DNA of 33,421 nucleotides from a virus, in IMG/VR virus record IMGVR_UViG_3300021142_000106, positions 1-33,421 of that record; one strand, 5' to 3'. Of this stretch, positions 5,835 through 19,468 are shown piece by piece. Both the position numbers and the translations under genes were made by a program. Position 1 is the first letter of the stretch; each line of letters begins with the position of its first letter. The notes beneath the pieces are model-generated. The model was not told where the DNA came from, searched no databases, and worked only from the letters and a program-made list of their open reading frames with translations.

Positions 5835-5840
5835 AGCCTA
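5835..5840 (-). promoter_or_regulatory. TAGGCT box 7 nt before spike gene
   Basis: TAGGCT-N7-ATG. Here the TAG is also the stop codon of the hub gene, so termination-reinitiation coupling is an alternative explanation for this copy. Confidence 0.3.
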
Positions 5841-8423
5841 CGCTTGGCTCGCCGCGTCCGCCGAGCCGTCGTCGTCGCCGAAGACCGCGTCGGCGCGGAC
5901 GGTGATGTAGTTCATCCCCTCCAGGTCGACCGCGACGCCGTCGTCGATGCCCCACTTGATGCCGATGGTCTTCGTGCGGAACACCGTCTGGAATCCCGAG
6001 TCCCCGTACGCCTTCGCGTAGGCGTCCGCGAAGCCGTCGTCGAACCCGAGGTCGCGGAGGAACTGCGCCGCGCGCTCCTGCACGACCAAGAACTGCTCGA
6101 TCTGGTTCACGCTCGGCCCGCTCGGATCGCGGTTCACCAGGAGCTCGAACGGGTCGCCCGCGCGCATGTCGAGGATGTCCGGATCGAGGTTGCCACCGCC
6201 GAGCGAGGCGAGGTTCTTCGTCGACACCTTCAGCGAGAGCTCGTTGCGCCCGACGCTCTCGTAGATGTGCTTCGCGATCGCGATCAGCGCGGCCTCGCTC
6301 TTGAACCCGGACACGTTGTGCACGGTCCACTTCGCGTCCGTGCCGCCGTCGCCGGGCAGCCCCATCGCGAGGAAGTCATCGCGCCCTGGGAAGCGCCCGA
6401 CGAGCAGACGCTTCTGCGCCGGCAAGTAGCAGTTGTGCGATACGATCCCCTCCGCAGCATAGGTGTTCGACGCGGTCTGGAGGTTGTAAACGTGCCCAGA
6501 AAACTCGAAGGTTTCGACGCTGACGATCTGGTCCGACGGTACCTCGAAGGAGAGAGCGTCTGGGCACTCGGCAATGCGATCGGCATTCACTCCCGCGTCA
6601 TCAACGCGACTCTCAACGCGCGCGGCGTCCGCCGACGCACCCACGCTGAAGCCGAAGCCCTTCGCTTCTCCCGTATGAGCATCGAAGATCGCGCGCGTCT
6701 CACCACTCACATGCACGACGCGACACGCGGACGTCGACTCCCGAGAGCTCAAGTCCGACGCGCTCAGGATGCGCGCGCAGTCGCCGTCGAGCGCACGCGC
6801 TCGTGCACCGGACGTTTTGAGAACGAGTTGCTCGCGCTTCTTCACGAGCGCGGCGTCGATCCGACTCCACAGCTCGCGGTCGATCGTTACAACGTCGACA
6901 TCGCCATCTTTCCCATCGCCGTGGAAGTCCACCTCGGAGGTTCGTACCCGTTCCCGCGGCGCGAGGCCGCAAACTACCAGGCCGATCGCATCCGTCGCCG
7001 CGTCGAAAAGCTCACGAAGCTCGGTTGGCGCACACTCTTCGTGTGGATCTCCGCCGCTGGCCCGTTCACCCCAGCGGTCCTCGCAGACAAGGTGATCTCC
7101 ATGCGCGAGCTCGCGCATCGGAACCCATCCGCGTTCGGTAAGTACCGGGTGATTCGGGGTACCGGAGAGGACGCGCCCATCGCGTGTCTCAAGACGCACC
7201 ATCGGACCTGAATACGCGCGACGATAGATGCGCTCGATCTCGCGCGCGGTGACTCGCGTCTCTCCTGGAAAACACCTGACTTCGACGTTCGACGGCGCCT
7301 GCTTGTTGTACGAGCGCTTGATCCCGATCTTCGACACGTTGCGGCCGAAGATGAAGACGCGGTGGTTGTAGCCGCCGCGCGTGGTGAACGGATCGTCGGG
7401 TCGCTGCGCGCCGCTCGACGAGTAGAGCGTGCGGGCGCGCGTGATCACGATGGTCGTCCCCTCCATGAAGATCAGGTGCCCGAGCGCGCGCGCGCAGTCG
7501 GTGAGGTAGTCCCAGACCGACAGCTTGCCGGTGCCGCCGCTCGCGCCACCGCCACCCGCCGGCGGCGGTCCGAGGTTCGGCGCGTACGTGCCCTTCGCCA
7601 GCACCGACTCCAGCGTCGGTGCGACGCCGACGCCGCGGTACTCGATCGAGAGCCCGACGAACTGAGGGAAGTGCGCGAGATACTTCGCCACCGCTTCGGG
7701 GAAGATGATCTTCGCGTCGCACACGAGCTTCGGCGGCGCCTCTTGGTCGATGACGACCTGCGTGTTGTCGCGGCACTCCAGCGTCGCCGTCGGCTCGCCT
7801 TCGTCGTTGATGTCGACGTCCCACGTGTCGACCCAGCCCTCGAACCGGTTGTTCGTGCGCTGCCGACCGTCCGCGTCCACGTACGTGTCCGGGAGCACCT
7901 CGCCGCCCGACCCGTACTGCCGCCCGAGCAGCTGCGTGCGGTGATCCTCGGTCGTGATCGTCCCGAGGTAGAACGACACCGCGCACGCGCGGATCGCGCG
8001 CGGGTCGACCGGGCAGTCGATGAACTTGAGCGTGAGCTTCAGCGTGTCGGCGGCGCGCACGCCGTTCTGCGTCCACTGCGCGTCCTTCGGGATGATGCCC
8101 TCGATGAAGTGCGTGCGGTCGTCGCTCGACGAACGCTCGTCCTGCGGGCCGCCGACCTTGCCCTCGCCGGGCACGCCACCGCGGGGCATCAGCACCCAGC
8201 GCTTCGAGAACGGCGCACTCGCGTTGAACGGGACGCTGGTGTCCTCGTGCGCGTAGAGCTCGGCGCGCGCGTCGCTCGTGCCCTTCGCGTTCTTCGCAGG
8301 CTTCTTCGGCACGCGCGACTTGAGCGGTCCGGTGTCGCCGAACTCCTCGAAGCGGATGCCCAGGCGCACCTTACAACGGGGCACGTAAGTTTGCTCTGGC
8401 GACTCGAAGGATTGATCCGACAT
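5838..8423 (-). CDS. Baseplate hub protein (gpD/gp27-like) precursor with intein
   Basis: An 861-residue open frame. The exteins (residues 1-383 and 665-861, 580 residues after splicing) resemble the hub proteins of contractile tails. FIEGIIPKDAQWTQNGVR and VWDYLTDCARALGHLIFMEG fit the tail-hub fold, as does the position between LysM tail protein and gpV-like spike. An intein occupies residues 384-664 and joins NVEVR to CYLPAQKR. The first about 17 codons are unusual for this genome, with many A/T-ending codons (GAT, CAA, CCA, CAA, ACT, CGT, TGT). They copy, with changes, the displaced start at 9125. No Shine-Dalgarno sequence is seen before ATG 8423. The region before it (8424-8449) is AT-rich. 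Confidence 0.8.
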   Translation of the reverse strand: MSDQSFESPEQTYVPRCKVRLGIRFEEFGDTGPLKSRVPKKPAKNAKGTSDARAELYAHEDTSVPFNASAPFSKRWVLMPRGGVPGEGKVGGPQDERSSSDDRTHFIEGIIPKDAQWTQNGVRAADTLKLTLKFIDCPVDPRAIRACAVSFYLGTITTEDHRTQLLGRQYGSGGEVLPDTYVDADGRQRTNNRFEGWVDTWDVDINDEGEPTATLECRDNTQVVIDQEAPPKLVCDAKIIFPEAVAKYLAHFPQFVGLSIEYRGVGVAPTLESVLAKGTYAPNLGPPPAGGGGASGGTGKLSVWDYLTDCARALGHLIFMEGTTIVITRARTLYSSSGAQRPDDPFTTRGGYNHRVFIFGRNVSKIGIKRSYNKQAPSNVEVRCFPGETRVTAREIERIYRRAYSGPMVRLETRDGRVLSGTPNHPVLTERGWVPMRELAHGDHLVCEDRWGERASGGDPHEECAPTELRELFDAATDAIGLVVCGLAPRERVRTSEVDFHGDGKDGDVDVVTIDRELWSRIDAALVKKREQLVLKTSGARARALDGDCARILSASDLSSRESTSACRVVHVSGETRAIFDAHTGEAKGFGFSVGASADAARVESRVDDAGVNADRIAECPDALSFEVPSDQIVSVETFEFSGHVYNLQTASNTYAAEGIVSHNCYLPAQKRLLVGRFPGRDDFLAMGLPGDGGTDAKWTVHNVSGFKSEAALIAIAKHIYESVGRNELSLKVSTKNLASLGGGNLDPDILDMRAGDPFELLVNRDPSGPSVNQIEQFLVVQERAAQFLRDLGFDDGFADAYAKAYGDSGFQTVFRTKTIGIKWGIDDGVAVDLEGMNYITVRADAVFGDDDGSADAASQA
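6479..6484 (+). promoter_or_regulatory. Shine-Dalgarno sequence of the antisense endonuclease gene
   Basis: GGAGGT lies 7 nt before the GTG at 6492. On the minus strand the same bases fall in the codons for Asn-Leu-Gln of intein block F (HVYNLQT), so one short stretch serves intein splicing on one strand and translation initiation on the other. Confidence 0.65.
6492..7211 (+). CDS. Homing-endonuclease-like protein encoded antisense inside the intein
   Basis: 239 residues from GTG 6492, which has a GGAGGT 7 nt upstream. The frame extends upstream into extein DNA, but the gene start chosen here keeps it wholly within the intein. Residues 11-46 (DDLVRRYLEGESVWALGNAI then GIHSRVINATLNARGV) look like a helix-turn-helix. 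Residues 108-186 look like a Vsr/DUF559-type PD-(D/E)xK nuclease: RFENELLALL, RYNVDIAIF, IAVEVHLGGSYPF, RRRVEKLTKLGWRTLFVWI. Candidate catalytic residues are E110, D136, E145 and H147. The C-terminus (GKYRVIRGTGE) resembles tails of such enzymes. Its codons are in register with the intein codons. Long antisense frames are common in GC-rich DNA, so the case rests on motifs, start signals and containment, not length. Confidence 0.8.
   Translation: MPRKLEGFDADDLVRRYLEGESVWALGNAIGIHSRVINATLNARGVRRRTHAEAEALRFSRMSIEDRARLTTHMHDATRGRRLPRAQVRRAQDARAVAVERTRSCTGRFENELLALLHERGVDPTPQLAVDRYNVDIAIFPIAVEVHLGGSYPFPRREAANYQADRIRRRVEKLTKLGWRTLFVWISAAGPFTPAVLADKVISMRELAHRNPSAFGKYRVIRGTGEDAPIACLKTHHRT
7101..7118. 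repeat. 18-bp palindrome encoding MRELAH on both strands
   Basis: ATGCGCGAGCTCGCGCAT is a perfect palindrome lying in frame on both strands. In the intein it gives MRELAH just after block B (residues 436-441 of the precursor). In the antisense endonuclease it gives MRELAH at residues 204-209. Confidence 0.9.
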
Positions 8424-8449
8424 ATTACGATCCGGGTTATATTTAACTC
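8424..8449. promoter_or_regulatory. AT-rich divergent start region between HNH gene and hub gene
   Basis: Twenty-six bases separate the two divergent ATGs and are far richer in A/T than the surroundings. On the plus strand TATATT (8438-8443) lies 6 nt before the HNH ATG, fitting a leaderless -10 element. On the minus strand TATAAC lies 12 nt before the hub ATG. The mobile element probably brought its own promoters. Confidence 0.5.
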
Positions 8450-9091
8450 ATGCAAGCCGCCCCGATTGAAGTTGGCGCGACGTTCGGACGACTCAAGATC
8501 ATCGGACCGGGGGCATCGAACAAGGGGCGGACGCGCGTGCACGTGAGTTGTGCGTGTGGTGTCGAGAAAGATGTCGATTGGTACGACGTCCGACATAGCA
8601 AGATCGTCTCTTGCGGCTGCCTTCATCGCGAACGATTCATCTTCAAGAAACACGGCCTGACGCCCGATAACGGCGACCATCACCCGCTCTACAACACGTG
8701 GGTGGTGATGAAGCAGCGTTGCTACAACCCGAAGCATCCCAAGTTTGCGGCCTACGGCGCGCGTGGGATTGTCGTGTGCGAGCGGTGGCGCGAAGACTTC
8801 ACCGCGTTCATCGCCGACATGGGCGAGCGCCCGCGCGGGACGACGCTCGACCGGCGTGAGAATGACGGCCCCTACGCGCCTGAAAACTGTCGGTGGGCGA
8901 CGCGCTCTCAGCAGAACCGAAACAAGCGACCAAACGTGATGCTCACGTGGAATGGCATCACGCTGTGCGTGCGCGATTGGTCCACGCGTCTTGGCATCGG
9001 AGCATCGACGCTCTCGTACCGCATTCGCGCCGGTTGGAATGTCGAAGCCGCGCTCACGACTCCCGCGAGCTTCGGCAATCGGCGCGTGTGA
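8450..9091 (+). CDS. HNH homing-endonuclease-like protein inserted at the hub gene start
   Basis: 213 residues. A Cys pair CACG (C34, C36) and SCGC (C55, C57) suggest a zinc-binding N-terminal domain. The core is AAYGARGIVVCERW and LDRRENDGPYAPENCRWAT (about residues 101-151), the signature of a phage HNH family related to AP2-type endonucleases. QQNRNKR follows, and then a C-terminal DNA-binding segment (WNGITLCVRDWSTRLGIG). It is on the plus strand, opposite the structural genes. It is related to the gene at 10832-11509 (same domain order and core). It lies between a displaced hub-gene start at 9125 and the recoded start at 8423. Codon use is less GC-biased than in the neighbours, consistent with transfer. 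Confidence 0.88.
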   Translation: MQAAPIEVGATFGRLKIIGPGASNKGRTRVHVSCACGVEKDVDWYDVRHSKIVSCGCLHRERFIFKKHGLTPDNGDHHPLYNTWVVMKQRCYNPKHPKFAAYGARGIVVCERWREDFTAFIADMGERPRGTTLDRRENDGPYAPENCRWATRSQQNRNKRPNVMLTWNGITLCVRDWSTRLGIGASTLSYRIRAGWNVEAALTTPASFGNRRV

Positions 9092-9125
9092 AGGTCTGCT
9101 CGGGCGTTTCGAATTCGTCGGCCAT
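9090..9125 (-). pseudogene. Displaced original start of the baseplate hub gene
   Basis: On the minus strand, ATG 9125 begins MADEFETPEQTF, then reads through the antisense of the HNH gene for 10 more codons to a stop. The intact hub protein begins MSDQSFESPEQTY. With one gap, 8 of 12 residues are identical and the others are conservative (A/S, E/Q, T/S, F/Y). The fragment uses GC-ending codons like the rest of the phage. A TAGCCT box (9134-9139) stands 8 nt before its ATG, as at other genes here. The last codon overlaps the HNH stop. This is best read as the 5' end of the ancestral hub gene cut off by insertion. Confidence 0.82.
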
Positions 9126-9132
9126 CGCGCAC

Positions 9133-9161
9133 GAGGCTACACCGCGGCATCGACGCGCTCA
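9133..9161. promoter_or_regulatory. Divergent intergenic module, copy 1
   Basis: GAGGCTACACCG (9133-9144) is followed by CGGCATCGA (9145-9153) and the plus-strand ATG at 9161. The same two words in the same order stand before the plus-strand ATG at 14707. On the minus strand the first word contains the TAGCCT box of the displaced hub start. Confidence 0.5.
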
Positions 9162-9556
9162 TGACCGACCCCTCCCGTCCCGCAGCAGAACCCACCGAAG
9201 ACGACGTGCGTGCGTTCCTCGCCGAGCCCGAGATCGCGATGGTGCTCGACGGCCTCGGCGCCCGCTACACGACCAACGCGCTGCTCTCGTGCCTCATCGC
9301 CGGCATCGAGATCCCCGAGCAGCTCGGGGTGACCGCGGAGGTGCTGCGCAAGACGCCCGGCATCGAGCACGTCATCGCCGACCTCACCGAGAACATGACG
9401 CCGCACGCGCTGAACGCGATCGCGCAATCGGCGAACGGCAACTGGGATGCCGTCGTCGCCGGCGCGCACGCGCTACGCCTCGGTCACGCCAAGCTGCAGG
9501 AGCTCGCCGAGAAGATCACGAGCCCGTCGGACGCCCCGTCGACAGAGCCGGGATGA
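9161..9556 (+). CDS. Small plus-strand protein of unknown function
   Basis: 131 residues, beginning MTDPSRPAAEPTEDDVRAFL. It appears soluble and alpha-helical (VRAFLAEPEIAMVLDGLG, HALNAIAQSANGNWDAVVAG), with no signal peptide, membrane segment or recognised motif. Codon third positions are G/C-rich as in real genes of this window. Its last 41 nt overlap antisense the 3' end of the LysM gene. Its upstream region matches that of the plus-strand gene at 14707, suggesting shared control. No clear Shine-Dalgarno sequence is present. It may be a moron or early-type gene among late genes; function unknown. Confidence 0.6.
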   Translation: MTDPSRPAAEPTEDDVRAFLAEPEIAMVLDGLGARYTTNALLSCLIAGIEIPEQLGVTAEVLRKTPGIEHVIADLTENMTPHALNAIAQSANGNWDAVVAGAHALRLGHAKLQELAEKITSPSDAPSTEPG

Positions 9557-10831: not shown

Positions 10832-11509
10832 ATGTTCAAGAGAGATTACACCGGCGAGCGATTCGGCGAATGGACCGTCCTCGACGAGAGCACGCCCGCG
10901 AAACTCCTCGCTCACGATCGCGGAGCACCGCGCCGAAAGCTAGCGCGGCGTCTGCGGTGCCGATGCGCGTGCGGCACGATCGCTCCGGTCCTTCTCCAGA
11001 ACCTGCAGCGCGGGCTCAGCACGCGCTGCAGATCGTGCGGCTACCACGTCGGCGGTGAAAAGCGGCGAGCGCGCGAAGAGACCGCGCGCGAACGGCATCC
11101 AGCCGAATACCGAGCGTGGACCGCAATGAACGCGAGGTGCTCGACCCCGAGTGCAGACGTTCACGGCAACTATCGCGGGCGAGGGATCTGCGTCGCGCCT
11201 GAATGGACCGGCCCAGATGGGTTCGAGCGATTCTTCGCTCACATCGGAGCGCGTCCGAGCGCGCGTCACTCGGTCGACCGCTACCCGAACAACGACGGGA
11301 ACTACGAGCCCGGCAACGTGCGATGGGCGACCGCGACTGAGCAAGCGCGCAACCGGCGCTCCAACCTACGCGTCACGATCGATGGGGTCTCGAAATCGGT
11401 CGCCGAATGGGCCGAACAGGCGAGCGTGAGTGCGTTCGCGATTCGGTGGCGCCTCGCGCGCGGTTGGTCAGCGAGCGACGCCGTGTTCAAGCCCGACACG
11501 CGTCGGTGA
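10832..11509 (+). CDS. HNH homing-endonuclease-like protein, second family copy
   Basis: 225 residues with the same layout as the protein of 8450-9091. FGEWTVLDE comes at the N-terminus, then a Cys-rich element (CRCACG and CRSCG). The core is YRGRGICVAPEW and VDRYPNNDGNYEPGNVRWAT (residues 114-167), then EQARNRRSN, then a C-terminal helix-turn-helix-like segment (SVAEWAEQASVSAFAIRWRL). It likely cuts DNA near its own insertion site and promotes its own spread. It lies on the plus strand between the LysM gene and a 24-bp palindrome. Unlike the copy at the hub gene, I find no displaced start of the neighbouring gene on its far side. Confidence 0.88.
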   Translation: MFKRDYTGERFGEWTVLDESTPAKLLAHDRGAPRRKLARRLRCRCACGTIAPVLLQNLQRGLSTRCRSCGYHVGGEKRRAREETARERHPAEYRAWTAMNARCSTPSADVHGNYRGRGICVAPEWTGPDGFERFFAHIGARPSARHSVDRYPNNDGNYEPGNVRWATATEQARNRRSNLRVTIDGVSKSVAEWAEQASVSAFAIRWRLARGWSASDAVFKPDTRR

Positions 11510-11526: not shown

Positions 11527-11550
11527 CGATCGAAAAACGTTTTTCAATCG
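11527..11550. repeat. 24-bp palindrome, copy 1
   Basis: Half-sites CGATCGAAAAAC and GTTTTTCAATCG, inverted with one mismatch. Two further G/C pairs extend the dyad on the outside (11525-11552). It starts 14 nt beyond the stop of the minus-strand gene 11565-11789. Confidence 0.85.
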
Positions 11551-19462: not shown

Positions 19463-19468
19463 AGGCTA
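19463..19468 (-). promoter_or_regulatory. TAGCCT box 6 nt before gp10-like gene
   Basis: TAGCCT-N6-ATG, immediately after the TGA of the preceding gene (TGATAGCCT). The intervening AGGGGC contains a partial Shine-Dalgarno sequence, so this copy is ambiguous. Confidence 0.35.

Follow-up and report, generated by a model that had tools for sequence, protein, structure and literature searches.

An HNH endonuclease gene in the coding start of a phage tail-module gene, probably tolerated through replacement of the gene's 5′ end

The window analyzed here is the whole of a 33,421-nucleotide stretch (positions 1 to 33,421 of IMG/VR virus record IMGVR_UViG_3300021142_000106), an uncultured virus record of a contractile-tailed phage with matches to tail sheath, baseplate wedge, and Baseplate_J. 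Within it, a tail-module gene (the host gene) is interrupted in its coding start by an HNH endonuclease gene; the host gene has one start stranded beyond the HNH gene and a second, working start on the near side (Table 1). The stranded start, on the minus strand at 9125-9090, reads ATGGCCGACGAATTCGAAACGCCCGAGCAGACCTTC and encodes the peptide MADEFETPEQTF. The working start at 8423 reads MSDQSFESPEQTYVPRCKV (peptide MSDQSFESPEQTY) and begins an open reading frame (ORF) of 861 amino acids, 5838-8423, that is open throughout. Both starts lie in direct orientation on one strand, and the HNH gene occupies the strand opposite to the host gene, its TGA stop codon (9089-9091) overlapping the final codon of the stranded start. 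An earlier note on this DNA had described an orphan minus-strand start with a TAGCCT box beyond the HNH gene, and a host gene cut after about codon 12. Both descriptions are borne out, by the sequences at 9125-9090 and 9139-9134 and by the match of the stranded start to codons 1-12. TAGCCT occurs six times in the window, always on the minus strand and never on the plus strand; five copies lie shortly upstream of gene starts (minus-strand positions 19468, 14680, 9139, 4500, and 2003), and the motif is probably a −10-like box of the phage placed near the start codon.

Table 1. Features of the invaded gene start, in window coordinates
Feature	Coordinates	Strand	Basis
Stranded native host-gene start, codons 1-12, MADEFETPEQTF	9090..9125	−	Homologous to the uninterrupted start of L002
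Native −10-like element: the TAGCCT box belonging to the stranded start	9134..9139	−	Identical box precedes the L002 start
HNH endonuclease gene, 213 amino acids	8450..9091	+	phrog_374, E 4.7e−58
A/T-rich 26-bp gap separating the two divergent start codons	8424..8449	.	Sequence
Replacement host-gene 5′ end, codons 1-17, A/T-ending codons	8373..8423	−	Codon and L002 comparison
Remaining host gene (tail-module protein, identity unverified), intein-interrupted at 6432-7274	5838..8372	−	

The earlier note called the host gene a "hub" gene, an unverified label that comes from gene order alone. The label gained nothing from family searches, which matched the host protein only through its intein, or from a predicted fold with a predicted local distance difference test (pLDDT) score of 31, which is unusable.

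The evidence for which of the two starts is the original one comes from a relative, L002, whose version of the gene has neither the HNH gene nor the intein and whose protein is 81% identical over the aligned length. The L002 gene has one uninterrupted start, MADDFDTITPEQTYVPRAKV, reading MADDFDTITPEQTYVPRAKVRLGIRFEEFGDTG, behind the same TAGCCT box and an upstream sequence, GATGCC.CGGTGTAGCCTCGT, that is shared with the window's stranded start. A single uninterrupted start in a relative free of the HNH gene is what the earlier note had predicted, and the case that it named as refuting, an uninvaded relative with only an 8423-type start, was looked for, with the native-type start of L002 found instead. 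Over 33 aligned nucleotides, a comparison that omits two extra L002 codons and one extra replacement codon, the stranded start matches L002 at 28 positions, the replacement matches L002 at 22, and the two starts of the window match each other at 23. Because L002 has a single start with the same box and is closer in nucleotide sequence to the stranded start, the stranded start is ancestral and the working start its replacement. The same values bear on a local duplication of the gene's own start, in which the HNH gene landed between two copies and one copy drifted. The direct orientation of the copies on one strand suits such a duplication. However, the stranded start resembles that of L002 more than the copy presumed to be its sister, drift would have had to affect the functional copy, and no nuclease-free relative with near-identical starts in tandem was seen; we regard this origin as very improbable.

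The HNH protein matches phage HNH families (phrog_374, E 4.7e−58; phrog_3377, E 7e−56), with no Pfam match at E ≤ 0.1, no NCBIfam match, and no PDB match at E ≤ 0.01. The gene is of the free-standing type, carried by neither an intron nor an intein. Its ORF, which matches HNH families only, fills the insertion wholly, with no integrase (att sites were not searched for). Although the layout alone might suggest a spliced intron with translation from 9125, no Rfam match was found in 8200-9300 at E ≤ 1, a complete start adjoins the gene body, and the HNH and host genes lie on opposite strands, which makes splicing extremely improbable. A group I intron or intein insertion was likewise rejected, given the lack of an Rfam match, the position of the host-gene intein (6432-7274, with none at the HNH insertion site), and an HNH gene not bounded by two exons or exteins; the earlier note's view that neither an intron nor an intein is involved holds. 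The minus-strand intein is itself crossed by an antisense plus-strand ORF that ends at 7211 and has a weak restriction-endonuclease match (MTES_1575, E 2e−5, below the Pfam cutoff), and the nuclease of this intein may be encoded on the opposite strand.

The replacement start differs in composition from the rest of the gene and of the phage. A/T-ending codons make up 7 of the 17 codons at the beginning of the host gene versus 45 of 306 over the same 17-codon span of 18 other phage genes (Fisher's exact test, P = 0.01), in agreement with the earlier note. The G+C content (GC) of 8373-8449 is 0.468, a value equaled or undercut by only 0.09% of the window's 77-bp stretches, versus 0.618 in the nuclease gene and 0.668 in the host-gene body. 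In codons 21-383, unlike codons 1-17, GC at third codon positions (GC3) is 0.948. The A/T-ending codons cease at codon 17, about five codons beyond the break after codon 12. Similarly, 10 of 30 nucleotides differ between the window and L002 in the ten codons from PEQTY, with 9 of 10 residues conserved, versus 4, 4, and 2 of 30 in the following three ten-codon blocks, with no residue change. These comparisons indicate that the replaced tract extends about five codons past the break. Such an overrun would fit destruction of both halves of a cleavage target and, equally, a short conversion tract. When the stranded and replacement peptides are aligned after Met, 7 of 11 residues are identical and the codon is changed at 5 of these 7. 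Of the proposal that recoding keeps the protein, the recoding thus stands, and the protein is kept only roughly. A diverged donor allele would account for the changes in the replacement start just as well as selection for immunity would. A promoter supplied by the element, also proposed in the earlier note, found no support: a consensus scan of the new region gave no sigma-70-like match, and the native TAGCCT box stayed behind with the stranded start.

We propose that the HNH gene encodes a homing-type endonuclease and, having entered the coding start of the host gene, is tolerated through gene-end replacement with no splicing, a reading to which we assign a probability of roughly 0.7. The nuclease would cut the native sequence near codon 12, and repair from a donor would copy the nuclease together with a linked replacement end. 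Because of the differences that the replacement end carries to either side of the junction, the invaded gene would escape further cleavage. A diverged homologue in the donor is the probable source of the replacement, which would then have been retained for its resistance to cleavage; neither RNA nor protein splicing would be required. In this scheme, we infer immunity by changed codons, mobility of the element, and a supplied promoter. Ordinary phage mosaicism would instead have the HNH gene and the adjoining start arrive together from a diverged phage by chance recombination. The codon differences would then reflect divergence of the donor, and neither selection for resistance nor the nuclease's cut would play a part. 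The residues that differ between the two starts, in addition to the codons, and the low GC of the tract and nuclease, which suits a foreign donor, both fit mosaicism.

To examine other phage HNH genes, HNH relatives were gathered from viral contigs (63 + 42 + 80 loci), near-identical HNH ORFs were collapsed (193 to 174), and L001 (the window itself) and L066 and L067 (both on the contig of L002) were excluded. For each HNH ORF, the gene end flanking it on one side was compared, in four geometries, with possible counterparts across the ORF, and mismatched loci served as the null. The highest null score in 2,115 pairs was 31, and a cut of 32 was chosen after this maximum was known. The gene-end duplication in the window is beyond chance, because it scores 40 versus the mismatched-locus maximum of 31. 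Eight of the 174 HNH ORFs score at least 32 (L027, 66; L173, 46; L076, 45; the window, 40; L082, 39; L170, 38; L072, 33; L059, 32), or 7 of 173 excluding the window. The same scoring found 1 of 663 similar-size control genes from the same loci above the cut (Fisher's exact test, P = 2e−5 at 32), and this gene is one of a tandem paralogue pair. Judged from sequence comparison, gene-end replacement is associated with HNH genes; the near absence of duplicated ends among control genes argues that the nuclease matters, and we therefore consider mosaicism unlikely, though it deserves serious weight. GC3 of the replaced 20 codons is lower than in the rest of the gene in 8 of the 8 top cases, and in the ten best-scoring cases 49 of 78 codons at identical residues differ between replacement and stranded copies. 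An earlier screen by free local alignment of 69 flank pairs was too noisy and was abandoned (the window scored 43, the null maximum 56); its match at L041 was out of frame but pointed to a genuine case there.

Four cases are supported by uninvaded relatives: the window, L041, L173, and Vibrio phage 1.133.O. In L173, L170, L175, and L171, which share one host gene and may represent one lineage, the HNH ORF takes over the native start (MTITTYATLKTAVA in L173) of this gene, which encodes a tail tubular protein, as its own beginning; the host gene begins anew in an ATGA-type arrangement overlapping the HNH stop. L173 is supported by the uninvaded Octadecabacter virus DB2, whose gene starts MTINTYATLQTAVADFLNR, resembling the stranded start. 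At L041, EILDPTPSTSK, in changed codons, is the terminus of the gene before the second HNH gene, whose own tail is RDLLNQQPSKA, followed by a stop and the next gene; uninvaded L070 has EILDPTPSKA, a stop, and the same next gene. Among the remaining cases, comparison with relatives covered L082, which is without uninvaded support (the nearest terminase compared, from phage Rollin, has a differing C-terminus), and L059, which is weaker because the gene of its uninvaded relative starts near residue 18 of the L059 ORF. As read from these sequences, the layout is found in other phage genes too, at 5′ as well as 3′ ends. As a separate observation, GC3 of the gene before the first HNH gene of L041 (403-1323) drops from about 0.9 to about 0.5 over the last ~90 codons, and in L070 the HNH gene before 2931 is reduced to a C-terminal remnant. 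In L041 and L070, a longer stretch of this gene's end may have been replaced, with the nuclease in decay.

Vibrio phage 1.133.O (score 44) is an isolate and a 3′ case. Its MazG-like gene carries the replacement end GKCINGCYVKEADL, and the HNH tail reads TKINGSFVKEADL. Eight close Vibrio relatives are HNH-free at the site, two with native-type ends (GRMINGSFVKEADL and GKMINGSFVKEADL, in 1.157.O and 1.226.O, which support the native end of the 1.133.O case) and six with replacement-type ends, 1.242.O among the latter; the HNH gene itself is found in one record only. A nuclease-free replacement-type end can be a donor allele or a scar after nuclease loss, and such ends also suit mosaicism. Since the window is an uncultured virus record, a metagenome assembly chimera might be suspected at this locus, but the same layout in this isolate and in several independent contigs leaves that explanation hardly credible.

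Several observations weigh against the proposal that the HNH gene is tolerated through gene-end replacement. L002 is the sole host-gene relative found: three queries of viral contigs led to one contig only, and no relative of the L002 protein was found among 50,697 phage records or in genome contigs. No duplication signal is present in 166 of the 174 HNH genes. Among named phages, 1 of 14 loci is positive, that of Vibrio phage 1.133.O (the loci are L195, L196, L199-L205, and L216-L220; L197 and L198, with HNH genes inside inteins, were left out). L041, which relies on the single relative L070, scored only 13 in the blind test, and the screen can therefore miss real cases. The replacement-type end without a nuclease in six of eight Vibrio relatives need not be element-made, which argues against each element writing its own recoded end. 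Finally, a second HNH gene of the window, at 10832-11509, lies between a 74-amino-acid ORF and the tail gene that follows; the screen does not count it as a gene-end duplication, and because of this absence it looks like an ordinary intergenic insertion. Elsewhere, a palindrome around GAAAAACGTTTTTC is repeated at 11534-11547 and in other intergenic gaps, with recurring LKNVFRS/IEKRFSI translations in many ORFs, and is probably a terminator.

The usual view is that homing genes located in conserved coding sequence require an intron or an intein. We conjecture that gene-end replacement may be a third general route by which phage homing nucleases persist inside essential coding sequence. The element would consist of the nuclease plus a recoded end, would act at 5′ and 3′ ends in either orientation, would often take the native start or stop of the host gene into the nuclease frame, and would leave cleavage-resistant scars upon nuclease loss. 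This generalization is tentative, its odds falling a little short of even. Gene-end replacement would dispense with splicing, give a built-in reason for donor resistance, and account for some of the abrupt shifts in codons and sequence seen at the ends of phage genes. Its recurrence suggests that selfish nuclease genes can enter essential genes without self-splicing, and the wider pattern makes the window case more than a single oddity. The cultured Vibrio breoganii phages, with one isolate that carries the element and close relatives with native- or replacement-type ends, make the proposal directly testable.

The comparisons with known systems that follow draw on excerpts of the cited papers. 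An insertion in a methylase gene of mycobacteriophage ShiLan (PMC11855218) also places a phage HNH gene within a gene with neither an intron nor an intein supported, and its first 11 in-frame residues resemble the host residues following the insertion site. There, however, the host frame continues through the insertion with the HNH gene out of frame, and the excerpts do not describe gene-end replacement. The out-of-frame HNH gene of ShiLan (PMC11855218) is resembled by two DNA polymerase inteins with frames open throughout, L197:1583-2507 (Shewanella phage SFCi1) and L198:1529-2447 (Caulobacter phage GB2A), whose HNH ORFs (1771-2445 and 1732-2373, respectively) lie in another reading frame on the same strand as the intein. 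Free-standing HNH genes of Cluster J mycobacteriophages (PMC3706429) and T-even phages (PMC2988022) are alike in flank co-conversion and in the split nrdA and gene 60, and phage homing commonly converts flanking markers (PMC2988022). These cases are attributed to repair error or a distant donor, and in the excerpts no stranded native end or replacement strategy is described (PMC3706429, PMC2988022). Nor is a replacement strategy described in the excerpts of PMC12724721, PMC10448857, and PMC2248197. A literature search that covered few subscription journals, and is thus weak evidence of absence, found no description of this strategy in phages.

Closer parallels come from outside phages. The integrative elements IMEVchUSA3 in dusA and SXT in prfC (PMC8409611) rebuild the 5′ end of the gene that they enter; as in the window, a new N-terminus is supplied (61% identical over 35 residues in DusA), and there the gene stays expressed. 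Those insertions are integrase-mediated with a demonstrated promoter (PMC8409611), whereas the insertion in the window is an HNH ORF and the new region beside it gave no sigma-70-like match. The mobile ORFs (mORFs) of fungal mitochondria, known from atp6, atp9, cox2, and nad3 of Glomus sp. and, as cited therein, atp6 of Allomyces macrogynus (PMC3630166), likewise combine an endonuclease ORF within a gene, a gene body joined to an end of foreign origin and different coding, and a native end stranded past the nuclease that matches a close relative better. The same layout is present in the window, where the nuclease ORF lies between the stranded native end and a foreign replacement end joined to the host gene; of these two ends, the native one is the closer to the uninvaded relative. 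In the excerpts, mORFs encode LAGLIDADG or GIY-YIG enzymes and affect C-termini only, in mitochondria (PMC3630166), in contrast to the HNH gene, phage genome, 5′ end, and reversed nuclease of the window and to the phage 3′ cases. Because it involves a 5′ end, a phage, and an HNH gene, we do not file the window case as a mORF; it works like one.
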